64,000 nucleotides of DNA. Origin: Barnesiella intestinihominis YIT 11860 (GTDB lineage: Bacteria > Bacteroidota > Bacteroidia > Bacteroidales > Barnesiellaceae). Positions 19,324 to 50,248 of the stretch are shown here, in pieces. The DNA lies in NCBI RefSeq assembly GCF_000296465.1, contig NZ_JH815204.1, forward strand, positions 62,001 to 126,000, written 5' to 3'. The translations under genes were made by a program, and so were the position numbers. The notes under the pieces were generated by a model that worked only from the letters and a program-made list of their open reading frames with translations, did no database searches and was not told the origin of the DNA. Each line of letters starts with the position of its first letter. Position 1 is the first letter of the stretch.

Positions 19324-20175
19324 ATGTTGACTGAATTTATTACATGGACTGCTAATCCGGCTCTTTACGACGGCTTTATCGAGATACGGTGGTACGGATT
19401 GTTTTTTGCTATCGGTTTTATTGTCGGTTACAACATGATGGAACGCATGTTTCGTCATGAGCAGGTGAACCTGAAATGGCTCGATTCGTTGTTTATTTAT
19501 GTGGTAATCGCGACGGTTTTGGGCGCTCGCTTGGGACATTGCTTGTTTTATGCATGGGATTATTATTCGCAGCACCCCTTAGAAATATTGAAAGTGTGGG
19601 AAGGCGGTTTGGCGAGTCACGGAGGTGCGATAGGGATTATTATCGCCATTTGGCTATATTCCCGACGGGTTACTCACCGGAATATGTTGTGGACTTTTGA
19701 CCGATTGGTCGTTCCGGTCGCTTTGGTCGCTGCGCTTATTCGTACGGGTAATTTGATGAATCATGAGATTTACGGACATGTGACGACTTTGCCGTGGGGA
19801 TTCCGGTTCATACAGAATTTATCGGAGTGGATGAAGGGTGCTGCCCCTATTTTTACGGAACCGTCGCACCCTACCCAGATTTATGAGGCTTTGTGTTATC
19901 TGCTTCTGTTCGGATTGCTTTTGTATATGTATTGGAAACGTAATGCGGAGGAACGGGAGGGTCTTATTTTCGGGACCTTTTTGATAGGCATATTTCTACC
20001 TCGTTTTTGTATCGAGTTTATCAAGAACAATCAAGAGGTGTTCGAGGAGACTATGTTGTTGAATATGGGGCAGTTGTTGAGTATTCCGTTCGTTATCGCC
20101 GGGGTGTGGTTGGTTATTCGTGCTTTGTCTCGACCGAGAGTGCCGATTAAATTTGCGAAGGAGAAAAAGAAATAG
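19324..20175 (+). CDS. lgt: Prolipoprotein diacylglyceryl transferase
   Basis: Inner-membrane enzyme that moves diacylglyceryl from phosphatidylglycerol to the lipobox cysteine, the first step of lipoprotein maturation. This matters here because the window encodes many lipoproteins. The 283-residue product has about seven membrane helices. Signature segments: GGLASHGGAIGIII with the essential His, RTGNLMNHEIYG (the Lgt signature with Arg and Asn) and HPTQIYEAL. Single gene ending in a lysine-rich tail, followed by a repeat island. Confidence 0.97.
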   Translation: MLTEFITWTANPALYDGFIEIRWYGLFFAIGFIVGYNMMERMFRHEQVNLKWLDSLFIYVVIATVLGARLGHCLFYAWDYYSQHPLEILKVWEGGLASHGGAIGIIIAIWLYSRRVTHRNMLWTFDRLVVPVALVAALIRTGNLMNHEIYGHVTTLPWGFRFIQNLSEWMKGAAPIFTEPSHPTQIYEALCYLLLFGLLLYMYWKRNAEEREGLIFGTFLIGIFLPRFCIEFIKNNQEVFEETMLLNMGQLLSIPFVIAGVWLVIRALSRPRVPIKFAKEKKK

Positions 20176-20937: not shown

Positions 20938-22506
20938 TCAGTAATCGTATTCGAGCGTGAAATCGTCTAAGAAGAGTACGCTACCGTCACCCCCGGTGAA
21001 ATAGTCGCCATATTTACTAGCTGATGCTACTACTACGATATAGGTGGGAATCCGGTCGGTATCTCGATATTCGAGTTCAAGAGTGAACGGTGTGTATTCG
21101 GTTACGGATTTTCCGCTGTACATATCGGCATAAGCGATAATATGCGGATCGTTTTTATCGAATAGTTTGCGGTCACTTGGTTTTGTGCGTATCTCGACCG
21201 GTTCGCTCCAATCCCCGAGTGCTATGAAGATTTGGCAGGTATCGGGTTGTCCGATAAGATATTTCATCTCGTCGTTCGATTTGTTTATCTCGACCGAGGT
21301 GTATTTGAAATATCCTTTTAGCCGTGTGGGGCGTTGGGTAAATTGTTTTCCGAAGTTGAGCACTCCGTTGGTTCCTTCTGTACGGAGGTAATTTCCCGTG
21401 TACATATTCCCGGCAGCCAGTTTCCCGATGGAACCTATTCCTACGAACTTGGTCGCTAATTTAGCCGCTTGTCCGGTTCCCGACCAAGTGTCGTCGGTGG
21501 GTTGTGTATTGCTGTCACCCAATGTAGTGGCTCCTTTATTGCCTGTATCCCAGAAGTTTTCGCTTCCTTCGGCCCATGGATTCCAGACTTTTCCTACTTT
21601 GTTCCAATCGTCGAAACTTCCGTTGGGAAGTTCGGCTGCGCTTCCGGTCGTAAATGTTATTTCGTTCCCTGTCAAGTCACCAGATACGGCTCGGCATACA
21701 TAGGTCGTGTTGGCTTTCAAATGTATCATGCGAGCGGTGAAACTTCCCTTATCGTGTGTGACGTATTCGTCGGGGACTTTTTCCCATGTGCCGGCTGTCG
21801 CTTCTTTTATTTCGAATCCATTTTCGGCATCTTCTTTTCCGCTACCGTGCAGCCAAGCAACATTCGTCCAAGCATCGACCCCGTCGGTAGATATTTCGGA
21901 TTCAGATGGTACGATATATAGGGTCCATTCTTCCATAATACCGTGGTATACGATAATGACTTTTTGGTATCCCAAAGAGAAATCGGTGAGTTTTTCTTTT
22001 TCGGGAGAATATGAGGTTATTCCCTGAGGGCCTAAAACGAGCTCGGTGATTTTTATGTTCGCTAAATCGATGTCTTTATTGACATAGGCAATGGCTCTGT
22101 GATTATGGGCATCGAATACCGGTGCTCCTATTTGTCCCTCTACTCTGAAACTTCTTTCGATATTTTGGGTGGCATTTATCGTCCATGTGTAGTCTTGATA
22201 GATGGAGAGTGTCAACGTGTAACTTTTGGAGAGGTCGATAATCGAATCGGAAGGAAGATCGGATACGGCTCCTTCGGTGAGATCGAGGGTTTCGATATGT
22301 ACTCGTCGCAAATCGACCGTATCGGACAATTCCATCGTTACCATGCGTTTGTCGTTGTCGATAGCGGCTGTACCGATTTGTCCGTCGGCGGAGATCCCTA
22401 ATATCTGCGCTTTGATGCGAGGGTAGGGAATATCGTTCTTAATACAAGCCGATAAGAGGAGTGTACATAAAAGAGAGTATATGATGTGTATATAGTTTCG
22501 TTTCAT
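20938..22506 (-). CDS. FN3/PCMD-domain surface lipoprotein (last gene of the operon)
   Basis: Predicted outer-membrane lipoprotein. I place the start at 22506 (MKRNYIHIIYSLLCTLLLSA followed by Cys, a good lipobox); a longer upstream frame would overlap the preceding gene. Two N-terminal beta-sandwich repeats (residues 25-200) have the look of Bacteroidetes Ig/DUF5018-like domains. An FN3-like domain follows with LKANTTYVCRAVSG and FTTGSAAELPNGSFDDW. The rest is a PCMD domain, with RLKGYFKYT, CQIFIALGDW and VVASASKYGDYFTGGDGSVL just before the C-terminus. The last two thirds closely resemble the gene at 24095. PCMD stands for putative carbohydrate metabolism domain; binding rather than catalysis is my inference. 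It lies 7 nt after the barrel gene. Confidence 0.85.
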   Translation of the reverse strand: MKRNYIHIIYSLLCTLLLSACIKNDIPYPRIKAQILGISADGQIGTAAIDNDKRMVTMELSDTVDLRRVHIETLDLTEGAVSDLPSDSIIDLSKSYTLTLSIYQDYTWTINATQNIERSFRVEGQIGAPVFDAHNHRAIAYVNKDIDLANIKITELVLGPQGITSYSPEKEKLTDFSLGYQKVIIVYHGIMEEWTLYIVPSESEISTDGVDAWTNVAWLHGSGKEDAENGFEIKEATAGTWEKVPDEYVTHDKGSFTARMIHLKANTTYVCRAVSGDLTGNEITFTTGSAAELPNGSFDDWNKVGKVWNPWAEGSENFWDTGNKGATTLGDSNTQPTDDTWSGTGQAAKLATKFVGIGSIGKLAAGNMYTGNYLRTEGTNGVLNFGKQFTQRPTRLKGYFKYTSVEINKSNDEMKYLIGQPDTCQIFIALGDWSEPVEIRTKPSDRKLFDKNDPHIIAYADMYSGKSVTEYTPFTLELEYRDTDRIPTYIVVVASASKYGDYFTGGDGSVLFLDDFTLEYDY

Positions 22507-22513
22507 TTTACTT

Positions 22514-23368
22514 CTATATGTGCAGGCACATGCCAATGTTGATGTTGAACAAGTTTATTTTGAAATCGGCTCCGCTCGATCTGCGACTTCCGGTTTCTTC
22601 GTTATTCGTCGTTTGTTTGATCGTTCCGTATCGTAATCCGGCTACTCCGAACGAAACACTGGTACTGATGTTGTTCATGATAAATACGCAAAATCCCGGA
22701 TTTAACCCCAATTTGATTTCAGATGTCGTTGTTTTGGTATTTTTCAATGACTCGTCGCTCCCTCTTACAAAGCGGTTCGAACCGCTTGAAAAGGCTAATT
22801 CCGTTTCGTTGAAGAAGCCGAAGCGCTTGTTTTTGTCGATTCCGATATATGCCCTATGGAACAGAGCGGCCGAGAAGGTCTCGCCTAAATAACGTATATC
22901 GCCCAAATTGAATTGCATATCGTCGTCGATGTCTATATCCAAATTGTCTAAGTTTGCACTTAAATGACTGTATCCGAGTTTTATACCTATACATTCGTTA
23001 TCTTTGATGAAATAGCCTACGAATGGGTTCAGGGTAGTTATGTTGCCTTTGAAATTAAAATCTTTGATGAAGATCAGGAGGTTATTGTCTTTACTGTCGA
23101 ATTCTCCGTGCGAGAGAGTCAAACCTGCGATCCATTGCTTTTGGGGAATGAGCAGATAGTTTTTCAATCCCCGTTTGTATTTTTTTCTGCTGAGCCCGTG
23201 TTTTTCGGCGATCGTATCGGGCTCGGACGTGGCGACAGAAGTGTTTCCCGGAACGATGGTTACCGTATCGGGAATGACGGTTGTCGAATCTTGCACTTCG
23301 GCATGAAGCAATATTTGTCCGGGAATGAGTATTCCTATTAAAATCAATATGTATTTTAAGTTTTTCAT
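22514..23368 (-). CDS. Outer-membrane beta-barrel protein, paralogue 2
   Basis: Unnamed 284-residue barrel. The signal peptide ends LLHA at about residue 23; a Thr/Val/Pro-rich linker of about 35 residues leads into an alternating beta pattern with aromatic girdles and a terminal FNINIGMCLHI strand. It shares layout with its neighbour at 23365: an IPQKQW / IPKGQW motif, a GYFIKDN / CYIVKDN strand, RFGFFNE / RFGLFNE, the run IKQTTNNEETGSRRS / VKQTTDQVYTGKRS, and a closing amphipathic strand. The two genes therefore arose by duplication. Start and upstream stop overlap by four bases. Confidence 0.8.
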   Translation of the reverse strand: MKNLKYILILIGILIPGQILLHAEVQDSTTVIPDTVTIVPGNTSVATSEPDTIAEKHGLSRKKYKRGLKNYLLIPQKQWIAGLTLSHGEFDSKDNNLLIFIKDFNFKGNITTLNPFVGYFIKDNECIGIKLGYSHLSANLDNLDIDIDDDMQFNLGDIRYLGETFSAALFHRAYIGIDKNKRFGFFNETELAFSSGSNRFVRGSDESLKNTKTTTSEIKLGLNPGFCVFIMNNISTSVSFGVAGLRYGTIKQTTNNEETGSRRSSGADFKINLFNINIGMCLHI

Positions 23369-24102
23369 AAATAAAAAGCGATACCTAAACCCAAAGAAAA
23401 GATGTTGACTTTGAAGTTTGCCATGTTTTGAGACCGTTTACCGGTATAAACTTGGTCGGTGGTCTGTTTGACATGACTGTAATTAAAACCTAATAAGCCG
23501 ACGTTTACCTCGATGGCTGTGTAGTCATTGAGAAATGCCATGAGCCCCGGCGCTATTCCGATATTGAAGTTGAACGAACGCTCGAATGTTCCTGTGAGAG
23601 ATTCTCCCGACCCGTTTACCATTTTCGATTCTCCACCACCCAAAGAGAGTTGCAGTTCATTGAAAAGTCCGAAGCGGCTACTGTTCCCGATACTGATGTA
23701 GTTACGCATGATCGCCATTCCCGAATAGGAGTGGCTCAGACTATACACGTTGTCCATGTCGAAGTTGAGATCGTCGCCTATTTTGATGGAGGCATTGTCG
23801 AGTTTCGTCAGGCTTCGTTCATAGGCAAACCGACCTCCCAATCCCAAATTATCTTTGACGATGTAGCAAAACATGGGGCTTACTTTGAATGTGTAGCCTA
23901 TACCGTCCATGTTTTCGATGACGAGGAACTGGTAGTTGTCGTTGCTATATTCGGAATAGGATATGGAATTACCTACTACCCATTGTCCTTTGGGTATGAA
24001 TGTATTTAGTACAATACCTCGGTCGAACTCCTGAGCGTGAACCGTAGTAAGGCTTACCCCTAAAAGCAGAGATGAGCATATCGCAGAGATGAGTTTATTC
24101 AT
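23365..24102 (-). CDS. Outer-membrane beta-barrel protein, paralogue 1
   Basis: A 245-residue barrel with a signal peptide ending VHAQ. IPKGQWVVGNSISYSEYS opens the barrel; RFGLFNELQLSLGGG and the C-terminal FSLGLGIAFYL are strands typical of small Bacteroidetes porin-like proteins. The start overlaps the stop region of the PCMD gene at 24095 by eight bases and its end overlaps paralogue 2 by four, so the three are translationally coupled. I expect an anchoring or export role for the lipoproteins of this operon, but that is inference from context only. Confidence 0.8.
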   Translation of the reverse strand: MNKLISAICSSLLLGVSLTTVHAQEFDRGIVLNTFIPKGQWVVGNSISYSEYSNDNYQFLVIENMDGIGYTFKVSPMFCYIVKDNLGLGGRFAYERSLTKLDNASIKIGDDLNFDMDNVYSLSHSYSGMAIMRNYISIGNSSRFGLFNELQLSLGGGESKMVNGSGESLTGTFERSFNFNIGIAPGLMAFLNDYTAIEVNVGLLGFNYSHVKQTTDQVYTGKRSQNMANFKVNIFSLGLGIAFYL

Positions 24103-26203
24103 AAATCAATTCTAAATCGTCGAGCCACATGGTACTACCCGTGCTACCTGTAAAGTAGTCTCCGTATTTGCTGGCAGAGGCCACGATTACAATGTAGTTG
24201 GGAATACGGGTGAGAGAACGGTAATCGATAGGAATTTCGAATTCCAGAAGTCCGCCGTCTTCTCCCTGTGTTTGGGTTGTTAAATCCCATTCGCCATAGG
24301 CAATTATTTTTTCGTCGTTTTTATCGAACAGGTTTTTATCTTTTGTCGTGATACGTACCGGAGCATCCCAGTCTCCAAGTGCGATATAGACACTGCCTAT
24401 ATCCGTTGCGCCATTTGTAAGTGCATCAGTTTCGGAATAGTCTACGGTTCCCGGCGTGTATTTAATGTATCCGCGAAGTTTGGACGGTCGCGAGGTAAAT
24501 GTTCGTCCGAAATCGAGGATACCGTTCGTACCGTCTCGTCCGATAAACTGTCCGGTGAACAAGTTTCCGGCAGCAAATTTGCCAATACCCATGACACCAA
24601 CGAATTGAGATTGTAATTTAACAGAGTATTTACCGCTGTGTTTGTAGGTCTCGTCGGGTGTAGTCACGTTTTTATTCATCGTCGCAGAACCGTGGTTCCC
24701 GCTATCCCAAAACATTTCCCCTCCTTGCGGGTATATTACCATTGCTTTGTCCGGGGTATGCCAATCTTCGAAACTGCTGTTGGGCAGTTTCGTCGCTTCT
24801 TCGGTAGTGAACGTTATTGTTTTTACCGAGGCTTGTGTTCCTGCAACGGCTTGATATTCGTATGTCGTTCCCGGTTCGAGTTGCGTTACCTCGGCAGATA
24901 TACTTGTTCCCGACAGGACGGCAGGAACGGATATCCATTCTTGCGAACCGGATTTGCGATATTGGAAAGAGAGAGTTTCCGATGTTTCTTTTACCAAAGT
25001 CCCTGATAGCGTGGCTTTCTTTGCCCAGATACCGGATCTTGCCGGGGCTTCCGTAACGACTATGGCATCGGATACGACTATCGTCAAAACCTGTGTATTT
25101 TCTTTTTCATTTGTATCGACGGCTTTTATTGTGAAGATATATTCTCCATCGGGGAGCGATTTTACAAAGTTCTCGGACAGAGTGATTTTTGCGTTCGAAA
25201 GGTCTTTATCTTCCTGATAGATGTGTTTTGCTCCGATGCCTTTGACTTGAAATTCCGTGATGATGCCTTCGGGGGCCGACAGGAAATCGATGGAATCGGC
25301 CGAGAGTCCTAAGGAGGGGAATTTTTCACAAGAAAGTTTTACATTTTTCAATTTGGTCGCGGCATTCACCCAAATCGCAGCTTCTTTTCCGCTGTTCGTT
25401 TCGTAATAAAGCGGTTGGGTTATATCGAATTTGTCTCCGACAATTTGCGGACGTTGTGTAATCACTACATTATGGGTGGAGTCTACGGTCGATTCATTTA
25501 CTTTGACGTCGATGAATGTACCTCCGGTCGCTGCGTTGTCGGCGTTATAGCTGAATGTGAATGCGTATTTCGTCGCTTTAACTACGTTTTCGACAACCCC
25601 CGATTGGGTATAGTTTTTACCGTCTGTTTTTTTCCCTTCGAAACTCCATGCCAAGCTGCGGTCTTTCCCGTTGAGCATATAGTATCCTACGGAATCTACG
25701 GTAGATTCTGTAAATGAGAGCTCGCCGGTAGTAGTAAATATTTTTACTTTATAGTCGGTTACGACGTTTGCTAACTCGGGCGAGAACGCAACCGTCGCCA
25801 ACGTATTTGCAATAGTACATTTTACTTCGGCCGAGGTAGTTTCTCCGCTTTGGACGGCGAAGTCGGCCGATCCTGTATAATAGGGGGTATCGAATGCTGC
25901 CGGGACAGAATCTCCGGCTATTACAAAGACATGATACTGTCCGCTTGCCAAGTTCAGTATGTCGGGCATGAGATTTTCTCTATCGTAATAACGAATGAGC
26001 CCTTTACTGCTGTATATGCGGGTTTGCATGGAGGCGTATATGCCCGGGTCGATAGCACGGGAAACGACAGCCACCTCGTCGGAAACTTTTACGTTCAACC
26101 GTACCGATCCTTCGCCGAGGGTCATGTCTTCTTCTTTACAAGCCGATAGCAGTCCTACAAGGAGCAGTCCGCAAGTAAAGTATGTTTTTATATAGCGTTT
26201 CAT
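24095..26203 (-). CDS. DUF4493/FN3/PCMD-domain surface lipoprotein
   Basis: A 702-residue lipoprotein (LLVGLLSAC lipobox at about residue 22). Residues 30-260 match DUF4493: GSVRLNVKVSDEV, a VVSRAIDPG segment, LASGQYHVFVIAGDSVPAAF, PYYTG and CTIANTLATVAFS. A middle beta domain follows, then an FN3-like domain (LEPGTTYEYQAVAG) and a C-terminal PCMD domain with LPNSSFEDWH, LRGYIKYTPG, VYIALGDWDAPV and VVASASKYGDYFTGSTGSTM. It begins one base after the upstream gene's stop. The DUF4493 part resembles the N-terminal domains of fimbrillin-like proteins in architecture only. Confidence 0.88.
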   Translation of the reverse strand: MKRYIKTYFTCGLLLVGLLSACKEEDMTLGEGSVRLNVKVSDEVAVVSRAIDPGIYASMQTRIYSSKGLIRYYDRENLMPDILNLASGQYHVFVIAGDSVPAAFDTPYYTGSADFAVQSGETTSAEVKCTIANTLATVAFSPELANVVTDYKVKIFTTTGELSFTESTVDSVGYYMLNGKDRSLAWSFEGKKTDGKNYTQSGVVENVVKATKYAFTFSYNADNAATGGTFIDVKVNESTVDSTHNVVITQRPQIVGDKFDITQPLYYETNSGKEAAIWVNAATKLKNVKLSCEKFPSLGLSADSIDFLSAPEGIITEFQVKGIGAKHIYQEDKDLSNAKITLSENFVKSLPDGEYIFTIKAVDTNEKENTQVLTIVVSDAIVVTEAPARSGIWAKKATLSGTLVKETSETLSFQYRKSGSQEWISVPAVLSGTSISAEVTQLEPGTTYEYQAVAGTQASVKTITFTTEEATKLPNSSFEDWHTPDKAMVIYPQGGEMFWDSGNHGSATMNKNVTTPDETYKHSGKYSVKLQSQFVGVMGIGKFAAGNLFTGQFIGRDGTNGILDFGRTFTSRPSKLRGYIKYTPGTVDYSETDALTNGATDIGSVYIALGDWDAPVRITTKDKNLFDKNDEKIIAYGEWDLTTQTQGEDGGLLEFEIPIDYRSLTRIPNYIVIVASASKYGDYFTGSTGSTMWLDDLELIYE

Positions 26204-26204
26204 A

Positions 26205-27482
26205 TTATTCTGTTACGAGTATTAATGTTTCTGTTGTCGTTCCTTGCGCGTCGGTAGCCTTTATGATAAAGTTGTGAGTCCCTGCGCCCAATAATCCTAA
26301 TAACGGCATAAAGTCGCTGATGTCGAAGGTTACTTTCGATTGGTTCAAGACGTTCGAGCCAGTGGGGAATCCCAATCCTTCTATGGCTGTTTTCAAGTCG
26401 CCCGGATTTACCAAATCGAGATGCGAGGCCAATCCCATACCTGCAAGTTCGTCGGGAGTCAATGTCGGCGATTCTATATCGACTACAAGTCCTGTAAGTC
26501 CGTTCTTATCGGAGCTTGTAATATCTACGATTACTTGTAATCCCTCGGTTACAGTGACCGGAGTTCCAAGTTTTACGGTCGCGCTTGTAATTTTCGGGGC
26601 ATCGGTGGGCTCGGGGTCCGGACCCGGATCGGGTTTGGTGCCGGGATCGATAGGGTTGGGGTCGACAATGACTTCTTCGTCTATCGTGACATTCCCGAGA
26701 TGGTCGATGATTTGGCACGAGGCGTCGAGTGTAACCGACGGTGTGACGCCTCCTGTCTCGCTTCCCGGTTCGGGTCGTTTGATATCGTAGTGTATTTTAC
26801 GCCATTCGCCGGCTTTTACGTTGTCTACCTGTATGCGATTGACCTCTTCATAGCCGTCGATCGTACCGGAGAAGGTCGCGATGAGCAGATTGCTCTCTTT
26901 GTCGGAACGGAAATAACCGGCACGAGATTCTTCTTTCATAAAATCGAGAGCTCCTTCTCCAACGGTAACCGATACTTTGCAATCTTCGCCCATCAGTGTT
27001 TTTAAATCCTCGGAGTAGGAGACCGAGACTTTTATATTTTGGAGGGTACATACGAGCGTATCGATTTGTGTCACTCTGTTTTCTTCGATAGAAAAAGTTT
27101 TATCTGCATAGTAATAGGGCTTTTCCCATTCGGCGGGTTGAACCTCGTGGGAAAATACTTTTAAATTATAATTACCGATGTTTAGTGTAACTATTTCGGG
27201 GGTTTCGCTGTATTTCCAATTTTTTTCGAGGGTTTCGCTACCATTGTCCGCGCGGAATATCTGTACTGTAAAACCGCCTGTGTCGACAGCCCGGCTTATC
27301 GGTTTTTTCTCGGTTTCTTTTATGTCGTTATTGGGTATGGCATCGAAAGAAGAAAGATCGAGAGTTCCGGTTTTCCCTGAAATTTCCCCGGGTTCGGAGT
27401 CGTAGGTGAGTTTCTCGCGGTCGCAAGATGTGCCTGCCAGTCCCAAGACTATGGTCAGAGCTATGTAGAATATCTTTTTCAT
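26205..27482 (-). CDS. DUF4493-domain lipoprotein with acidic Pro-rich linker
   Basis: A 425-residue lipoprotein (lipobox GLAGTSC). DUF4493 covers about residues 45-240: KPISRAVDTGGF, LNIGNYNLKVFSH, PYYYADKTFS and LVCTLQNIKVSVSYS. Then comes a spacer of Pro/Asp repeats (DPNPIDPGTKPDPGPDP) and a final beta-sandwich of about 120 residues with ITSATVKLGTPVTVTEG. Unlike its operon partners it lacks PCMD, so it may be an internal or linker subunit. Gap of 12 nt from the upstream gene. Confidence 0.85.
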   Translation of the reverse strand: MKKIFYIALTIVLGLAGTSCDREKLTYDSEPGEISGKTGTLDLSSFDAIPNNDIKETEKKPISRAVDTGGFTVQIFRADNGSETLEKNWKYSETPEIVTLNIGNYNLKVFSHEVQPAEWEKPYYYADKTFSIEENRVTQIDTLVCTLQNIKVSVSYSEDLKTLMGEDCKVSVTVGEGALDFMKEESRAGYFRSDKESNLLIATFSGTIDGYEEVNRIQVDNVKAGEWRKIHYDIKRPEPGSETGGVTPSVTLDASCQIIDHLGNVTIDEEVIVDPNPIDPGTKPDPGPDPEPTDAPKITSATVKLGTPVTVTEGLQVIVDITSSDKNGLTGLVVDIESPTLTPDELAGMGLASHLDLVNPGDLKTAIEGLGFPTGSNVLNQSKVTFDISDFMPLLGLLGAGTHNFIIKATDAQGTTTETLILVTE

Positions 27483-27494
27483 ATCGCTATGGGT

Positions 27495-30119
27495 TTATTC
27501 ATAAATGAAATTCAAGTTGTCTATTGTCAGAGTCGCTCCCCTCGAATTGGATTCGTATCGGGAGTAGTAGTCGGTCGTTTTTATCGTTGCGGTTTCTTCG
27601 CTTTGTGAATAGGAAGCGTGATTGGACGATGTAATCATTATTTTCAACAGATTGGCTTTTTTGTCGGTAACGTTGTAGACCAATGGAACTGTAAATTCGG
27701 TATAGTCTGATGCTGCCGTAAGGTTGATAGTACCGGATGCGAGTACCGTTTTTCCGTTTAGCAATGTTACCGAGATCACTCCGGTTTCAGAGCCGTCTTT
27801 GTTGTCGGGAGTGTATTTATACCACCCTTTCAGAATCGATGGCCGCGACGAGAATGCGGCTCCTTCGTTGTAGGATTCGGAATTACCGGAATAGGAGTAG
27901 GTGCCCAAGAATAGTTTGCCTGCGGAGCGGTTGGCTATCGAGGGGACGTTTTCGCTGTAATAGTATGCCGACCCTCTTGTTTTATAGTGGGGGGGAGGAG
28001 TCGTTCCGTTTTCGTCCCAAGCGACATTGCGAACGACCATGGCGTTAGAGCCATTTTGAGCTGTCAGGTTTTTGTATATGTCGGGAGTGTCGGTTCCTCC
28101 ACCTCCGAAAATGGGGATTCCGGGGACTGTCCCAGTCCATGACAATGTGGTGTTGTATGTGGAGGGGCAGACAAACCAAGACATTTGGTTGGTTGCTGAT
28201 GTATTGCTTGTTTTTGCGTTTACACTGGCCCACCCGACAGGTTCGCTGACGTTGAAACTGCATTTGCTTTGGTAGGTGGGGTTTCCTACGGTAGGCGACC
28301 ATTTTCCGCCTTGATTCATGTCGGATATGTTTATGGTTTGTGCCAAATTTTCGAAGTCTCCGTTCGGTACTCCCGCGGCGGCTTCGGTGTGGATTGTGCA
28401 ATTACCGTGATAGTTGACATTTTTTTGTTGGCTGTTGCACGTTCCTTTTATTTGGTAACGAGTATCGGGGAACAATCCGCTGATGGTGTAAATATTGTCT
28501 TTGTGTGTAGAGGAGGCTTGAATCCACTGCCCTGAGCTGTTTGCGAAAAGTACCGCATAACGGTTTACGGCCTCTTGGTATTGCGGGTCGGTGGCTGTGA
28601 GCTTGACGGTGGCTTTTTTTGCCCAAACGTCGTATTCTTCGGCTGATATCGTGAATTCGGGCGTGAGGACAGGAATGGAAGTCGCAGCCGTCTTTAATCC
28701 ACCGGATAGAGAGGCTTCTATTTTTACCGGTTTGTTTGTGGCTTCGACGGATATTTTAACTTGGTATAGATTTTCCTCGGTCGATAGAACTGTCGAGGTA
28801 CAATTTACTTTGTGGCCTTCGGCGTTAAGGTAACTGAATTGAACCAAATCGATATCGGATCCATCGTATAATACCGGAATTATGGCCGAAGAGCTACCCA
28901 CAAAAACGGCTTCGGGTTCTTGTAGGGTGAATGTTAAAGGAAGGTTTTTTACCGATAAAGAAATAGGCGATTCGCTAACTTTTCCGTACAGGTCTTTTGC
29001 CGAAATAGCGAACATGTGTTGATCGCTATTGTCGATAATTTGTAATTGTGTGAATAGTTCGGTGAAGTCGATGAATCCCATTTTATTTCCAACTTCGGAG
29101 AATCCCTTGATTTTCAGCCCTAATCGACGGAGTATTTCTGCTTGGTCTTCACTCATATTTATGAGGTCGATTTCTTGCGGCCACCCTTTGCTTTCGAGGC
29201 TGCGGGAAGAGGTCGTAAGGGTACACCCTGCCAATCCTCCTTTGGCCGTGAGAGATATATTTACGTTTTTGTCGGCCGGATAATTAAATTCTTTTGCTTC
29301 AACCGGAACACCGGATTCAAAACCAGACAGGAGGAAAGAGGGAGCCGGAGCTACCATTACTTCATCGGATATGTCTATTTTGATAGGTTGTGTTTCGGTT
29401 GTCTCGTCGAAACTGATGTTGAGTTGTGCTTCACCGGCGTTGTTGTCGCTGATGTCGAGTTTTATTTTGTAGTGCTGACGAGCGGCTGCGTTGGGTATGG
29501 CTGCCGGTTCGAAAGTAGATTCGATCCCATTTTGTTTTTTCAAGTGGGTCTGAATCGTGATTTTCCCGGGTTTTACGTAGGCTGCTCTCGTCTCGGTTTT
29601 AGAAAATTCGATGTATTCTCCTCCGGTAGAGTGAATGGTGGTCGAATAGTCGGCAAAGTATTTTTTGAAAGCGTCGGAATACTCGACGGTTACTTTTACA
29701 TTAGCCAATGTACAATTGATTTCTACCGAACTATTTTCCCGGTCACGCACGGCTACCGGGGTTTCTCCGAGATAGAACGGCTTTTCGAATCCTTCTATAT
29801 CGATATCTCCGTAGAAGGCACTCATCGTATAGGCTCCGACCGGTATTTTGGTAGCCGGGTCGAAATCGGCCAAACTATCCCATGCCCGAGAAAAACTACC
29901 GTCGGAAGAGACCAGTTTCAAAGCAAATTCGCTTACATCGGGATTTTCGATTGTCGAGGCTGATTCTGCTGTGGAGCGAGTTACAGGAACTACTTTATAA
30001 TCGGCTGAAACTTGTACGTTGATAGCACCGTATCCGGAAGACCCTTGCTTATCCTCATTTGCGCATGATACTAACAATAGCATGGTTGCGCTATACAGGA
30101 AAATTTTTTTTAATTTCAT
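27495..30119 (-). CDS. DUF4493/FN3/PCMD-domain surface lipoprotein (first gene of the operon)
   Basis: The largest member, 874 residues, with a lipobox MLLLVSC. DUF4493 spans about 25-290: GYGAINVQVSADYKVVPVTR, IPVGAYTMSAFYGD, PFYLGETPVAVRD and CTLANVKVTVEYSD. Several beta-sandwich domains follow, an FN3-like unit (GLFPDTRYQIKGTC), then VPNGDFENL and the PCMD region with SSRPSILKGWYKYTPDNKDG and a final LTIDNLNFIYE strand. The DNA is AT-balanced and unlike the GC-rich islands on either side of the operon. Promoter element at 30221. Probably exposed on the cell surface; ligand unknown. Confidence 0.88.
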   Translation of the reverse strand: MKLKKIFLYSATMLLLVSCANEDKQGSSGYGAINVQVSADYKVVPVTRSTAESASTIENPDVSEFALKLVSSDGSFSRAWDSLADFDPATKIPVGAYTMSAFYGDIDIEGFEKPFYLGETPVAVRDRENSSVEINCTLANVKVTVEYSDAFKKYFADYSTTIHSTGGEYIEFSKTETRAAYVKPGKITIQTHLKKQNGIESTFEPAAIPNAAARQHYKIKLDISDNNAGEAQLNISFDETTETQPIKIDISDEVMVAPAPSFLLSGFESGVPVEAKEFNYPADKNVNISLTAKGGLAGCTLTTSSRSLESKGWPQEIDLINMSEDQAEILRRLGLKIKGFSEVGNKMGFIDFTELFTQLQIIDNSDQHMFAISAKDLYGKVSESPISLSVKNLPLTFTLQEPEAVFVGSSSAIIPVLYDGSDIDLVQFSYLNAEGHKVNCTSTVLSTEENLYQVKISVEATNKPVKIEASLSGGLKTAATSIPVLTPEFTISAEEYDVWAKKATVKLTATDPQYQEAVNRYAVLFANSSGQWIQASSTHKDNIYTISGLFPDTRYQIKGTCNSQQKNVNYHGNCTIHTEAAAGVPNGDFENLAQTINISDMNQGGKWSPTVGNPTYQSKCSFNVSEPVGWASVNAKTSNTSATNQMSWFVCPSTYNTTLSWTGTVPGIPIFGGGGTDTPDIYKNLTAQNGSNAMVVRNVAWDENGTTPPPHYKTRGSAYYYSENVPSIANRSAGKLFLGTYSYSGNSESYNEGAAFSSRPSILKGWYKYTPDNKDGSETGVISVTLLNGKTVLASGTINLTAASDYTEFTVPLVYNVTDKKANLLKIMITSSNHASYSQSEETATIKTTDYYSRYESNSRGATLTIDNLNFIYE

Positions 30120-30728: not shown

Positions 30729-30745
30729 ATAAAAAATTGGAATAT

Positions 30746-32068
30746 ATGAAAATAGCGGTAGTAGGTACAGGCTATGTGGGCTTGGTTACGGGAACTTGTT
30801 TCGCCGAGATAGGAGTGGACGTTGTCTGTGTGGATATAGATGCCGAGAAAATAGCTCGTATAGAGCGTGGCGATATACCTATTTACGAGCCGGGGCTCGA
30901 CGAGATGGTTATCAGGAATATGAAAGCCGGACGTTTGCGGTTCGCCACCGATCTATCGGCTTGTCTCGACGGGGTGGAAATCTTGTTCAGTGCGGTGGGT
31001 ACTCCTCCTGACGAAGACGGATCGGCCGATTTGAGATATGTGCTCGATGTGGCTCATAGTGTGGGACGGTATATGACTGATTATCTTGTTGTCGTTACCA
31101 AGAGTACGGTTCCGGTGGGGACTGCCCGAAAAGTGAAAGCGGCTATACAGAGCGAGTTGGATAAGAGGGGCGAAAAGATTGACTTCGATGTGGCTTCCAA
31201 TCCCGAATTTTTGAAAGAGGGGAATGCGATAGCCGATTTTATGCGTCCCGACCGTGTGGTCGTTGGGGTCGAAAGCGAGCGGGCGGAGGCTTTGATGCAA
31301 AAGCTCTACAAGCCCTTCATGATCAACAAGTACAGGATTATTATTACCGATATTCCTTCGGCGGAGATGATTAAATATGCGGCTAACGCTATGCTGGCGA
31401 CTCGTATCAGCTTTATGAACGAAATTGCGTTATTGTGCGACGAGGTGGGAGCCGATGTAGGGGCCGTGCGCAAAGGTATCGGAGCCGACGATCGTATCGG
31501 CAGCCGCTTCTTGTATGCCGGCTGTGGATATGGGGGCTCTTGTTTCCCGAAAGATGTGAAGGCTTTGATAAAGACGGCGGAAGAGAATGATTGCGATATG
31601 CAGATTTTGAAAGCTGTCGAACGGGTGAACGAGTCGCAAAAGGAATTGCTTTATTACCGATTGCTCCGCTATTTCGACGGGAAAATATCGGGACGAAAAT
31701 TTGCCGTGTGGGGGCTTTCCTTTAAACCGGAGACCGACGATATGCGCGAAGCCCCGGCTTTGATATTGATCGATAAGTTATGTGATGCAGGAGCCCGTGT
31801 AAAGGTATATGACCCGGTGGCTATGCCGGAATGCAAGCGGCGGATAGGGAATAAGGTGGAATATGCCGAGAATATTTATGAAGCGGTTGCCGATGTGGAT
31901 GCTTTGTTGATTGTAACGGAATGGAAAGAGTTTCGTTTGCCGGATTGGAAAACGGTTATCCGGTCTATGAAATCACCTGTGATATTCGACGGTCGTAATA
32001 TTTATGATCCGTCTGAGATGAAAGAGTTGGGATTTGCTTATTATAGTATAGGTCGTCCGACGGTTTAA
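30746..32068 (+). CDS. ugd: UDP-glucose 6-dehydrogenase (EC 1.1.1.22)
   Basis: Oxidises UDP-glucose to UDP-glucuronate in two NAD-dependent steps, feeding capsule or other polysaccharide synthesis. I choose the ATG at 30746, since the frame upstream has only a TTG and the NAD motif GTGYVGLVTG sits at residues 7-16 from this start. The catalytic cysteine is C266 in GYGGSCFPKD. VTKSTVPVGT and FKPETDDMREAPAL are further family motifs. About 440 residues, as expected. Single gene between its promoter and a strong terminator, with a GC-rich hairpin repeat in its leader. Confidence 0.96.
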   Translation: MKIAVVGTGYVGLVTGTCFAEIGVDVVCVDIDAEKIARIERGDIPIYEPGLDEMVIRNMKAGRLRFATDLSACLDGVEILFSAVGTPPDEDGSADLRYVLDVAHSVGRYMTDYLVVVTKSTVPVGTARKVKAAIQSELDKRGEKIDFDVASNPEFLKEGNAIADFMRPDRVVVGVESERAEALMQKLYKPFMINKYRIIITDIPSAEMIKYAANAMLATRISFMNEIALLCDEVGADVGAVRKGIGADDRIGSRFLYAGCGYGGSCFPKDVKALIKTAEENDCDMQILKAVERVNESQKELLYYRLLRYFDGKISGRKFAVWGLSFKPETDDMREAPALILIDKLCDAGARVKVYDPVAMPECKRRIGNKVEYAENIYEAVADVDALLIVTEWKEFRLPDWKTVIRSMKSPVIFDGRNIYDPSEMKELGFAYYSIGRPTV

Positions 32069-32452: not shown

Positions 32453-33088
32453 ATGAAAAAATGGGTGTGCAGATTATCTATCGTATGCTGCTTGTGTTTG
32501 TTTTTTACCTCTGTGAAAGCTCAGCTTTCGTTGGGTGGGCTTGGAGACATACTGAATTCATCGACAGTGAATAAGGTTGTGAGTGCTATTGCCGGTACAG
32601 ATGCTTCGTTGACGGTTGCCGATTTAGCCGGGACGTGGAAATATTCGGCTCCTGCTTGTAAGTTCGAAAGCAGCGATTTCTTGAAATCGGCGGGAGGTGA
32701 GGTCGTGGCTGCATCTTTGAAAACAAAGTTGGCGACCTACTATACAAAGGCCGGTATCACGCCTTCGCGGGTTTCATTTGTTTTTGCCGATACTACTTTT
32801 GTAATGAAATATGGTAATGCGAAATTGAACGGTCATATTGTTAAAGACGAAGAGAGCGGAAGATTCGTGGTTACATTTACTGCCGTGGGTGGTTACATTC
32901 CCATAATGGTTATGGATGCCGTTATAAACAAGAATGGCAATACGTTGGAAATGCTTTTCGATGTGGATCGATTCGTGAAGGTATTGACTACTATTGCATC
33001 GAAGTCTCAGAGTTCTACATTGAAAAGTGTCGGTGGATTGCTCGATGAGTATGAGGGTGTATTGATGGGGTTTGAACTAGTGAAATAA
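32453..33088 (+). CDS. DUF4923 family secreted protein
   Basis: A 211-residue exported protein of unknown function, which I recognise as DUF4923, a Bacteroidales family. The signal peptide ends VKAQ at about residue 24. The mature part starts with a Gly/Leu-rich segment (LSLGGLGDIL), then ADLAGTWKYSAPACKF, an AGG.VAA helix and a lipocalin-like run of beta strands (FVMKYGNAKLNGHIV, FVVTFTAVGGYIPIMV). Probably periplasmic. Monocistronic, with its own promoter element and a strong terminator. Confidence 0.82.
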   Translation: MKKWVCRLSIVCCLCLFFTSVKAQLSLGGLGDILNSSTVNKVVSAIAGTDASLTVADLAGTWKYSAPACKFESSDFLKSAGGEVVAASLKTKLATYYTKAGITPSRVSFVFADTTFVMKYGNAKLNGHIVKDEESGRFVVTFTAVGGYIPIMVMDAVINKNGNTLEMLFDVDRFVKVLTTIASKSQSSTLKSVGGLLDEYEGVLMGFELVK

Positions 33089-33245: not shown

Positions 33246-33743
33246 ATGAAGAAATTAGTTTTAACCTTAGCTCTTGTGTTTGGTGTGTTAGCAGCCAATG
33301 CTCAGTATTTTGTGGGTGGTCAATTTGGGTTACTTTACGATGATGCATCGGAAAATACCATGATTACAATCGCTCCTGAATTCGGTTATGCATTTAACGA
33401 TACTTGGACGGTTGCCGGTATGATAGGTTATACTCATATGGACAATTTCAATTCGTTTTATATCGCTCCGTATGCCCGTTGGAATTTTTGGAAGAAAGAT
33501 TTCGTAGGCTTGTTGGTAGATGGTGGTTTCGGTATTTCTACTCAAAAGTATAAAGGGGCGGATTCGGATACCGGTTTTGAAATTGGCTTTAAGCCGGGTA
33601 TATCTTTTAATTTGACCGATAATTTCTCTTTGGTAGCTCATTACGGCTTTCTGGGATATCGTACTAAATATAACGGAAGCAGCGTGTCGGGCTTGTCTTT
33701 GAGCGGCAATGAGATAAGTCTCAGCTTGTATTATTGTTTTTAA
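33246..33743 (+). CDS. Small outer-membrane beta-barrel protein
   Basis: A 165-residue OMP_b-brl-type porin-like protein. The signal peptide ends ANAQ at residue 20. The mature protein has about eight alternating amphipathic strands (YFVGGQFGLLYDD, MITIAPEFGYAF, FVGLLVDGGFGIS, FEIGFKPGISF) and ends in ISLSLYYCF, a strand closing on an aromatic residue as in BamA substrates. Function unknown. Monocistronic. Confidence 0.85.
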   Translation: MKKLVLTLALVFGVLAANAQYFVGGQFGLLYDDASENTMITIAPEFGYAFNDTWTVAGMIGYTHMDNFNSFYIAPYARWNFWKKDFVGLLVDGGFGISTQKYKGADSDTGFEIGFKPGISFNLTDNFSLVAHYGFLGYRTKYNGSSVSGLSLSGNEISLSLYYCF

Positions 33744-47668: not shown

Positions 47669-50248
47669 ATGAAAATGATAGATTGTAGAAAGTCGTTGAT
47701 GGTATGCATCGGTTTGTTGCTGTGCGGAACCTTTTCGGCGCAGGAATCGGAGTTCGATTTGGCATCGCAGAGATCGGAAGCGCAAGACGTTTTTGCTGTG
47801 CCGGGTAAAAAATTGGATCATAAAGGGATAATTATTAACCCTACTCCTCATAAACTGGTTCTCGACCCAACCGGGAGGCTCGATATTTCGGGTGGAGTGT
47901 GTCTAAAAGATAAGCATGGAAAGTTTTCCGAGGATTTGGATTTTGTCACTTTTAACAAGAAGGGGGTAAAACTCTCCGTCGATTTTGGTTCGAAGGCTTC
48001 GGCTAAGTATGGGGTAAAACCTGTTTCGGGTGCATATCGCATGAATATCGGAAAGAATGGTATATCGCTCGTCGGTTATGACGAGCGGGGAGCTTTTTAC
48101 GGTTTGCAGACCCTTCGCCAGTTAGTCGAGAGTCCTGCGACTGTAACGGGCGAATTACCATATGTGGAAATCGACGATTACCCCGATTTGAAATACCGGG
48201 GAGTAGTAGAAGGATTTTATGGAACGCCGTGGTCTCATGAGGTGAGAATGTCTTTGATAGATTTCTATGGAAAGTTCAAGATGAATAGTTATTTGTACGG
48301 TCCGAAAGACGATCCGTACCACAGTTGTCCGAATTGGAGGCTTCCATATCCCGAAAAAGAGGCCGGAAATATCAAAGAATTGATAGAGGCTTGTAAACGT
48401 AATCGGGTCGATTTTGTCTGGGCGATACACCCGGGACAAGATATTAAATGGAACGAGGAGGATTATCAAAACCTCGTTAATAAGTTTAATTTGATGTATG
48501 ACCTCGGTGTACGGGCTTTCGCCCTCTTTTTCGACGATATATCGGGTGAAGGGACAAATCCGGTGAAACAGACGGAGCTTTTGAATAGATTGACTAAGGA
48601 TTTTGTGAAGTCCAAAGGCGATGTAGCATATTTAACGGTTTGTCCGACCGATTATTCCAAGCTTTGGGCAAACCCCACACCGCAAGGAAGTCTTGCTATT
48701 TATGGAGAAACTCTCGATCCGTCGATAGAAGTGTTTTGGACAGGAGACGTAGTATGCAGCGACTTAACACCGGAGACTTTGGATTGGGTTAATTCCAGAA
48801 TTAAGCGGCCGGCATATTTTTGGTGGAATTATCCGGTTACCGACTATGTGCGCAATATTATTTTGCAAGGACCTGTTTATGGCTTGAATACTTCGTTGGA
48901 TTCTAATGATCTTTGCGGAATAGCAAGTAATCCGATGGAACATGGAGAGGCTTCGAAATTGGCCTTATACGGGGTTGCCGATTATACCTGGAATATAGCG
49001 GCTTATAATCCTATCGATAATTGGGAGAGAGGACTCGGCGAATTGATGCCGAAAGCAAGGGAGGCCTATCGGACATTCGCTATTCATTCCTGCGATACGG
49101 AGACCGGTTATCGCCGCGATGAATCGTGGGAAACCAAGACATTCAGAATCGGTGATTGGAATGAAACGGAGGCTCAGGCTCTTTGGGCAGAATTCGATAA
49201 GGTAGAGAAAGCTCCTGCCGAAATAGAAAAAGGTTGCACCAATAAAGGTTTGATGAGTGAGTTGACTCCGTGGCTCCAAGAATTCGGAAAGTTGGGTACG
49301 AGAGGAAAACGGGCTTTGGAACTTGCCCGTGTTTATCGTGACGGTAAAGATGATGCCGATTTTTGGAATAAGTATATTCGGAACTTGATGAGTAAGAAGG
49401 ATCGAGAAGATTATGAAGCTCATAAAAGCGGGACCATGAAACTGCAACCATTTTATGAAAATGCTATGGACGATATGGCATACGGCTTTTTAACTCGGTT
49501 GTCGGGCGAGACTCCTATCTGTTATAGGGGTATAGGTTCGTTCCATAATGCGAAAACCACGTTGAGCAAGTTAATGTTTGATCACGATACTACGACTTAT
49601 TATACATCGGGAATCGCTCAAAAAGCCGGCGATTGGATCGGGGTTGATTTGGGAAGTGTCAAAGATGTGACCGAAGTTTCTATTTTGCAGGGGCGTAATT
49701 CTGTGGACGATGTCGATTATTTCGACCATGCCGTAGTGGAATATTCGATTGATGGTAAAGCATGGACTCCGTTGACGGAAGAGTTGAATAAACAGTATAT
49801 CGTTCGTTGGAACGGGGAGCCTGTAAAGGCCAGATATGTCCGATTGAAAAGACTCGAATCTACTCGCACGAATTACGCATCGGTTCGTTCATTCGAAGTG
49901 AATCCTCCCAGAGTGGAACATTTGGGTTTCAGCTTAAAGTCCGACGATGTACAGCAAGCTCTTTATGCGTTTGATCAGCAAATAGGCACAAGTTATCGAA
50001 ATAATGGAATTTTTTCTTTCGGGGTCGCTCCTCGGACCGAGGGATATACTTTGTTGGTGAATGAATTGCCGGAGGCGGGGAATGGAGCTCCTGTCGTGCA
50101 TTTGAGACAGTTTAGGCCCGATGGTTCGTTGGCGGTTGAGTCGGTTATCGATTCGTTGTTTTTTAAGGTCGAGTTGGCCGAGGTAGTTTCCGAAGTACAA
50201 ATAGAAGGGCCAGTGGAGATATTCGAGATAGTGCCGAAGTTTGATTAG
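47669..50248 (+). CDS. GH84 beta-N-acetylhexosaminidase (O-GlcNAcase/hyaluronidase-like)
   Basis: Exported hexosaminidase of 859 residues. Signal peptide of about 24 residues. Order: an alpha/beta hexosaminidase-like domain (about 50-170, GAFYGLQTLRQLVE), a GH84 TIM barrel (about 175-460, RGVVEGFYGTPWSHEVRM) with the catalytic aspartate pair D289-D290 (ALFFDDISGEG), a helical spacer, and a C-terminal discoidin/CBM32-like domain (about 630-780, YYTSGIAQKAGDWIGVDLG, ARYVRLKRLE). It uses substrate-assisted catalysis on terminal beta-GlcNAc. Its layout resembles the Bacteroides GH84 of known structure. Confidence 0.93.
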   Translation: MKMIDCRKSLMVCIGLLLCGTFSAQESEFDLASQRSEAQDVFAVPGKKLDHKGIIINPTPHKLVLDPTGRLDISGGVCLKDKHGKFSEDLDFVTFNKKGVKLSVDFGSKASAKYGVKPVSGAYRMNIGKNGISLVGYDERGAFYGLQTLRQLVESPATVTGELPYVEIDDYPDLKYRGVVEGFYGTPWSHEVRMSLIDFYGKFKMNSYLYGPKDDPYHSCPNWRLPYPEKEAGNIKELIEACKRNRVDFVWAIHPGQDIKWNEEDYQNLVNKFNLMYDLGVRAFALFFDDISGEGTNPVKQTELLNRLTKDFVKSKGDVAYLTVCPTDYSKLWANPTPQGSLAIYGETLDPSIEVFWTGDVVCSDLTPETLDWVNSRIKRPAYFWWNYPVTDYVRNIILQGPVYGLNTSLDSNDLCGIASNPMEHGEASKLALYGVADYTWNIAAYNPIDNWERGLGELMPKAREAYRTFAIHSCDTETGYRRDESWETKTFRIGDWNETEAQALWAEFDKVEKAPAEIEKGCTNKGLMSELTPWLQEFGKLGTRGKRALELARVYRDGKDDADFWNKYIRNLMSKKDREDYEAHKSGTMKLQPFYENAMDDMAYGFLTRLSGETPICYRGIGSFHNAKTTLSKLMFDHDTTTYYTSGIAQKAGDWIGVDLGSVKDVTEVSILQGRNSVDDVDYFDHAVVEYSIDGKAWTPLTEELNKQYIVRWNGEPVKARYVRLKRLESTRTNYASVRSFEVNPPRVEHLGFSLKSDDVQQALYAFDQQIGTSYRNNGIFSFGVAPRTEGYTLLVNELPEAGNGAPVVHLRQFRPDGSLAVESVIDSLFFKVELAEVVSEVQIEGPVEIFEIVPKFD

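Follow-up and report, generated by a model that had tools for sequence, protein, structure and literature searches.

Type V pili of the Bacteroidota (FimA/Mfa, with the anchor FimB/Mfa2, Pfam PF08842) consist of a tip, a stalk and an anchor, and their subunits are made as lipoproteins with a tandem two-domain transthyretin-like fold, an Arg or Lys exposed on the loop between strands 1 and 2 and, in many members, a conserved Trp near the C-terminus that packs between the two domains. In the available text of PMC5789003, Rgp (RgpA/B) cuts Mfa1, Mfa3 and Mfa4 at Arg49, Arg43 and Arg54, which lie in the beta1-beta2 loop or next to it, and no usher or chaperone is known for the assembly of the surface fibres of Bacteroidota. 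The Mfa2 homologue BT1062 is described as two transthyretin-like domains in tandem, each of seven strands (PMC2954217). The PCMD proteins of the BT2081 type (3hbz, 4het, 4jrl, 3s30) have a C-terminal jelly-roll domain with an aromatic pocket, and SusC/SusD polysaccharide-utilisation loci display surface lipoproteins with carbohydrate-binding modules. Here we analyse a six-gene operon in a 64,000-nucleotide stretch of Barnesiella intestinihominis YIT 11860 (the window; contig NZ_JH815204.1, positions 62,001 to 126,000) that resembles each of these systems in part. The operon probably, if only just, encodes a divergent pilus-like adhesion complex related to Bacteroidota type V pili, with PCMD tips and a pair of outer-membrane barrels as membrane partners.

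The six genes, P1 to P6, occupy 30119-20938 of the minus strand, separated by intergenic gaps of 12, 1, -8, -4 and 7 nucleotides:

27495..30119, minus strand: P1, lipoprotein of 874 amino acids with DUF4493 (~30035-29367), an immunoglobulin (Ig)-like region, an FN3-like region and a diverged PCMD end (~27926-27606)
26205..27482, minus strand: P2, lipoprotein of 425 amino acids with DUF4493 and a C-terminal Ig-like domain, without PCMD
24095..26203, minus strand: P3, lipoprotein of 702 amino acids with DUF4493, Ig-like and FN3-like regions and PCMD (~24775-24104)
23365..24102, minus strand: P4, outer-membrane barrel a, 245 amino acids, a P5 paralogue with an ordinary signal peptide by inspection
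22514..23368, minus strand: P5, outer-membrane barrel b, 284 amino acids, OmpA/OmpW-like (AlphaFold2 model me2ee5e696330, Foldseek)
20938..22506, minus strand: P6, lipoprotein of 522 amino acids without DUF4493, with a C-terminal PCMD (~21618-20953) and the lipobox region CIKNDIPYP

The length of P6 is counted from an ATG; the list of open reading frames (ORFs) uses an upstream TTG start, which gives 532 amino acids. Pfam identified DUF4493 in P1 (E = 7.8e-52), P2 (1.2e-43) and P3 (1.4e-41). PCMD is clear in P3 (8.1e-46) and P6 (1.4e-47); its match in P1 is weak (9e-8; 32.6 bits, the cut-off being 28, over profile positions 80-218 of 234). FN3 scores in P1 and P3 fall below the Pfam cut-offs, P4 and P5 match no Pfam family above its cut-off, and a search of NCBIfam returned no family above cut-off. 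The C-terminal domain of P2 matches the Ig-like domain of P3 with an hhalign probability of 98.1%; P2 is the same kind of protein as P1 and P3, minus the PCMD end. Across the whole genome there are three DUF4493 matches, all in the operon, and four PCMD matches, three of them in the operon. An earlier sequence-only reading of this DNA had described six tightly coupled genes with these gaps, three proteins with PCMD and three with DUF4493, one of the latter lacking PCMD, and a pair of paralogous barrels between the PCMD genes; the ORFs, the Pfam matches and the small-barrel model of P5 agree with this description, as do the domain searches of the six genes, which found no enzyme, regulator, SusC or SusD.

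DUF4493 is a distant relative of the Mfa2/FimB family of type V pilins. A 102-row DUF4493 profile aligned by hhalign with 24 Mfa2/FimB proteins at 91.5% probability over 188 columns (pairwise E = 8.4e-7, without database correction), a value from a second attempt, with a broader 24-row set after a first 10-row set, that deserves independent repetition. Against the same Mfa2/FimB set, eight other profiles from the system or its neighbour gave 0.1-2.8%, the reversed DUF4493 profile 0.2%, reversed subfamily profiles 0.3-2.1%, and all of 20 column shuffles at most 0.2%. The subfamily DUF4493 alignments each span the same first ~140 positions. When the Mfa2/FimB profile was run by hmmsearch against 980 ORFs, 240 of them DUF4493, a true Mfa2 ranked first and the next 18 hits below E 0.05 comprised 14 DUF4493 proteins, three PCMD-only proteins and one other. 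In the AlphaFold2 model of P3 (52 sequences; predicted local distance difference test (pLDDT) 87.1, predicted template-modelling score 0.54), DUF4493 folds as seven strands (31-131) followed by 7+1 strands (134-239), comparable to the tandem of BT1062.

The three DUF4493 proteins also share an arginine in the loop that follows the first strand of the domain:

29976..29978, minus strand: Arg48 codon of P1, loop after the first strand, possible processing site
27291..27293, minus strand: Arg64 codon of P2, loop after the first strand, possible processing site
26057..26059, minus strand: Arg49 codon of P3, low-confidence loop after the first strand, possible processing site

With loop borders set by hand from the alignments and background windows taken from residue 100 onward in the same proteins, the loop contains an Arg in 57/63 P1-type, 62/63 P2-type and 55/63 P3-type proteins; in random windows the frequencies are 0.47, 0.28 and 0.42. 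Within the loop, the motif [STA]R[SATGN] occurs in 44/63, 41/63 and 52/63, respectively (random windows 0.070, 0.037 and 0.033). The P2 Arg is present in all 62 aligned sequences (1/63 is gapped) amid variable loop neighbours, and is among the 14 positions that reach at least 97% conservation; the P3 Arg is kept in 51/60 aligned sequences, and in the P3 model Arg49 falls in a low-confidence stretch following strand 1. By analogy, the conserved Arg lies near where type V pilins are cut, and may be a cleavage site in P1-P3. Gut Bacteroidales use a surface clostripain (PMC12632263, in part), and the Barnesiella genome has one clostripain-family gene.

P1-P3 each start with a lipobox, followed by DUF4493. 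A lipobox was identified by pattern in 56/63 P1-type, 57/63 P2-type and 61/63 P3-type proteins. Behind the lipidated Cys, acidic residues gather in P3 at +3 (82%) and +4 (56%), in P1 at +4 (68%) and in P2 at +2 (47%) and +4 (54%); surface lipoproteins of B. fragilis have a similar acidic signal in this position (PMC5080379, in part), and from this analogy we infer that P1-P3 are surface-exposed.

The PCMD of P3 and P6 matches 3hbz, 4het, 4jrl and 3s30, and P6 is closest to these proteins in build. To compare the binding pockets we used four BT2081 aromatics given as strictly conserved in the available part of PMC2954218; residue correspondences are a hand reading of the printed alignments with the paper's residue numbers. 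All four positions are aromatic in 63/63 P3-type proteins, and each is aromatic in at least 55/57 P6-type proteins. The equivalent of Asp338 is kept in 63/63 P3-type and 57/57 P6-type proteins, and an Asp at the Asp259 position is present in only 1/63 and 0/56. By inspection, the GDYF stretch is missing from the PCMD of P1. Because the pocket aromatics are kept and one of the two proposed catalytic aspartates is lost, PCMD is likelier a binder than a hydrolase; an active hydrolase is disfavoured by the loss of Asp259, though Asp338 is kept. Unlike the BT2081-type proteins, the PCMD of P1 and P3 is fused to DUF4493-Ig-FN3, and the set has no SusC/SusD partner.

In the AlphaFold2 model of P5 (pLDDT 76.3) there are eight long strands and a short one of five residues. 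Foldseek with this model returned OmpA structures as best matches, followed by a mixture that includes OmpW. With eight long strands in the model and OmpA-type barrels at the head of its PDB matches, a role of the barrels in export seems unlikely, and we disfavour it. P5 is modelled as a small barrel like those of the OmpA/OmpW type (1bxw, 2f1v), from which the pair differs in being a tandem, tied to PCMD and DUF4493 genes, without the OmpA periplasmic domain. Only 9/49 members of the barrel family match a general Pfam barrel model at E 0.01. In other loci, first barrels and second barrels form separate groups in their identity to P5 (22-36% and 36-82%), so the pair looks old, a view based on identity only and not on a tree.

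Taken in this way, P1, P2 and P3 would be made as outer-membrane lipoproteins and carried to the cell surface, where each would be cut at the Arg in the loop after the first DUF4493 strand. The cut would free the subunit from its lipid and open a groove to be filled by a strand of the next subunit. P1 and P3 would cap the assembly, each presenting a ligand-binding PCMD on an Ig-FN3 stem, and P2, without a ligand-binding end, would be an internal subunit. P6, which has no DUF4493, would probably keep its lipid anchor and act at the base as an additional PCMD binder, and the two small barrels, which look too narrow for export, may be membrane partners that fix or organise the complex. Cleavage, strand exchange, the contacts between the parts and the ligand are what we infer here; the pilus-like half of the scheme would follow from homology and the membrane half, P6 and the barrels, from co-occurrence only. 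The sequence-only reading had proposed a surface-assembly or adhesion machine, to which the DUF4493-pilin relation, the Arg loop and the PCMD binder end lend support. Its capping subunits with a carbohydrate-binding domain fit a PCMD binder with kept pocket aromatics at the end of a chain, the ligand being presumed, and its internal subunit corresponds to P2, which is internal-like by layout, as P1 and P3 are tip-like. Of the two roles it gave the barrels, anchoring or export, the OmpA-type P5 model speaks against export and leaves anchoring or assembly as possible.

A number of observations weigh against this interpretation. The homology signal depends on the profiles used: subfamily DUF4493 profiles alone gave 2.2, 41.5 and 5.5% against Mfa2/FimB, a 60-row DUF4493 alignment (A4) only 65.7%, the first Mfa2 set (10 rows, mostly Barnesiella) 2.0 or 20%, and Mfa_like_1 sets 1.7-12.9%, and the Mfa2/FimB hmmsearch also raised PCMD-only proteins weakly. 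A PDB search with A4 found no pilin, its best match being a designed protein; with a full-length profile, FN3 swamps the matches. With the P3 model, Foldseek placed PCMD structures first and ranked 4gpv (a Bacteroides cell-adhesion protein in the Foldseek list) 29 and 3gf8 (DUF1812, that is, Mfa2) 48, behind many Ig/FN3 proteins and with low template-modelling scores; it is weak support for a pilin fold, because the pilin-like entries rank low and the matched region is not reported. The Pfam fimbrillin models Mfa2 and Mfa_like_1 did not match P1-P3 at E 0.1. Unlike many type V pilins, DUF4493 has no constant Trp near its C-terminal end (best 39/63, at P3 position 186), its conserved Trp residues lying early (60/63 in P1, 56/63 in P2), and no repeated stalk subunit was recognised. 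The Arg motif is gone from P3 in the clade L090-L094. On the membrane side, the acidic signal of P6 is weak, with two or more acids in 7/25 proteins and often CIKNDIPYP instead, the P5 model also matches larger barrels at weaker scores (the polypeptide transporter FapF, EspP), and the barrels are tied to the other proteins by co-occurrence only, not physically. We do not file the operon as a type V pilus because the curated models are unmatched, the C-terminal-end Trp is not constant, and neither a stalk subunit nor a fibre has been shown; the barrel pair and the PCMD-only lipoprotein, which belong to the set here, are a further difference. The operon might instead stand for a pilus-like class of its own, in which DUF4493 pilin relatives have their own barrel pair as dedicated membrane base or assembly partner, a part that type V pili are not known to have, and the barrel module can leave the subunit genes yet be kept, a proposal that we regard as tentative and rather doubtful.

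In the genus, 9/9 genomes have three DUF4493 matches close together, and gene order is identical in the window and eight other fetched loci, in three of which a competing reverse ORF hides the second barrel; a chance layout is thereby excluded. In the order, sampled evenly, 31/247 genomes have DUF4493. With P3 as the seed, a search found 340 relatives, and the best 80 of them were retained. In the shorthand D for DUF4493, P for PCMD, DP for their fusion and B for barrel, 65/80 of these related loci have the order DP-D-DP and at least 31/80 the full order DP-D-DP-B-B-P, a lower bound because contig ends and competing ORFs hide genes. Some contigs appear in the locus sets under two identifiers (L054/L101, L060/L109, L063/L092, L066/L097, L074/L091 and others), so that locus counts are not counts of independent genomes.

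A barrel is present at the locus in 42/80 related loci and absent beside the DUF4493 trio in 38/80; a six-frame check of these 38 found no barrel in any. We searched 35 of the 38 genome-wide, leaving out the short contigs L096, L128 and L143, and in 35/35 genomes barrels were found elsewhere as a neighbouring pair (one barrel is partial in G259). At least 2 kb downstream of the trio was covered in 31/35; the contig ends first in L119, L138, L140 and L155, for which unlinking therefore does not follow. In a large group of genomes, mostly Muribaculaceae and similar by record title, the barrels thus lie away from the DUF4493 trio but are still kept: the barrel module and the DUF4493 trio stay together in genomes even when apart. 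We fetched 23 barrel loci (20 from genomes with barrel-less trios, L274 from the same genome as G281, and the exceptions G160 and G092), and 23/23 have a PCMD gene without DUF4493 at the barrels. Among 80 barrel loci, counted after L083-L089 were dropped as repeats of genus genomes, the script places a PCMD-only gene directly after the barrels, in the same orientation, in 74, and correction of a start codon in L050 makes it 75. Of the remaining five loci, four are cut off by a contig edge; the fifth, L072, is an exception. Barrel genes that mostly lie apart from PCMD genes in other genomes would have refuted the sequence-only reading, and these counts show that they do not.

In the sample of 247, a barrel match below E 1e-30 was found in 21/21 genomes with a DUF4493-PCMD fusion and in 2/226 others (Fisher p = 1.8e-28, ignoring relatedness), with a threshold picked after viewing the list, in which the next weaker match was 4.8e-24. 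The 21 fusion genomes were sorted by hand from fetched loci, and a few DUF4493 genes in G016, G092, G177 and G247 lie outside the fetched stretches. Among 10 genomes in which DUF4493 was seen only without PCMD, one (G092) has a barrel below 1e-30. The two exceptions are G160, with barrels and a PCMD gene and no DUF4493 match, and G092, with a weaker barrel (1e-33) and fetched DUF4493 genes without PCMD.

Variants of the layout were also observed. In L288 and L075 the barrel pair is immediately preceded by a DUF4493-PCMD gene, an arrangement intermediate between the joined and split layouts. In 12/23 fetched barrel loci the barrel-barrel-PCMD module is followed by another small barrel gene, of family c2 (for example, L295:11804-12478, plus strand). 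Short DUF4493-only proteins of 225-284 amino acids, which look like minimal subunits, are found in or near the operon in some lineages. Solitary DUF4493 genes of ~385-455 amino acids occur in other families (L052, L055, L059, L062, L065, L069, L073, L076, L080), and six solitary DUF4493 proteins have, by eye, Lys-Ser in the loop after the first strand.

The same parts could serve in glycan capture without polymerisation, with P1, P3 and P6 as BT2081-like surface glycan-binding lipoproteins, P2 as a spacer and the barrels as small pores or anchors. The PCMD has the BT2081 fold, and BT2081 and its paralogues were placed in polysaccharide-utilisation loci (PMC2954218, available part); the four checked pocket aromatics are aromatic in all P3-type proteins, and Foldseek also lists the Bacteroides glycan-binding protein SGBP-B. 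However, SusC, SusD, enzymes and regulators, by which such loci are set apart from this operon, are missing among the six genes, and glycan capture leaves both the pilin relationship of DUF4493 and the loop Arg unexplained, so that we hold it to be unlikely.

Less likely still is a surface-polysaccharide system, in which the lipoproteins retain or arrange exopolysaccharide or capsule made by the cell itself. A UDP-glucose dehydrogenase gene adjoins the operon in the window, and some solitary DUF4493 genes sit among polysaccharide-synthesis genes (read from first residues). Members of four gene clusters, three assigned by Pfam (UDP-glucose dehydrogenase, Polysacc_synt_2, glycosyltransferase) and one sugar dehydratase by reading, are found in 28/113 loci, a raw count, uncorrected for background, that is suggestive; but 85/113 loci have none of the four, and several trio loci adjoin genes read as housekeeping. 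A part in outer-membrane biogenesis, in which the barrel pair and the lipoproteins serve lipoprotein sorting or membrane stability, is highly improbable. Barrels and lipoproteins do co-occur even when unlinked, and the gene for the lipoprotein-lipidating Lgt is next door in the window, yet the fusion-type set was found in 21/247 sampled genomes of the order and hence is not a general need, and the Ig/FN3/PCMD ends fit ligand binding.

A literature search, mostly without subscription papers, found no mention of DUF4493, PF13201 or PF14900, and among the papers listed on type V pili with lectin tips and on Barnesiella adhesins, with subscription papers mostly outside them, there was no such system. 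The sequence-only reading noted that no characterised system of this layout is known. Set against this literature, with the Pfam clan grouping outside the comparison, the link between DUF4493 and type V pilins is new here. The tie to pilins would give an unnamed Bacteroidales family a testable place in an adhesion apparatus, its cut sites predicted to the residue; the kept barrel pair would bear on the open question of how Bacteroidota surface fibres are assembled.

The operon is flanked in the window by genes for Lgt, which lipidates lipoproteins (19324-20175, plus strand), and UDP-glucose dehydrogenase (30737-32068, plus strand). Upstream lies a divergent gene whose product is a possible accessory part of the system:

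32453..33088, plus strand: DUF4923 lipocalin-like protein, possible accessory, divergent and upstream of the operon

The DUF4923 gene is instead 164-314 bp divergent from the barrel pair in 5/23 fetched barrel loci. Strong copies were found in 10/18 genomes with the system, some of them on another contig, and in 1/20 without the fusion; the comparison covered 18 of the 21 fusion genomes. An OMP_b-brl barrel protein of 165 amino acids (33246-33743, plus strand) follows DUF4923 in 8/9 Barnesiella loci and was not seen in L048. Further along the window, at 47669-50248 (plus strand), lies a gene for a GH84-like beta-N-acetylglucosaminidase that carries an F5/8 type C domain. The same genome carries an ordinary Mfa_like/Mfa2 fimbrillin cluster (G000:C2:530820-535296), so two such systems may coexist. 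In Coprobacter secundus, a true Mfa2 family gene (L097:17388-18380, minus strand) lies ~2 kb past the end of the operon.

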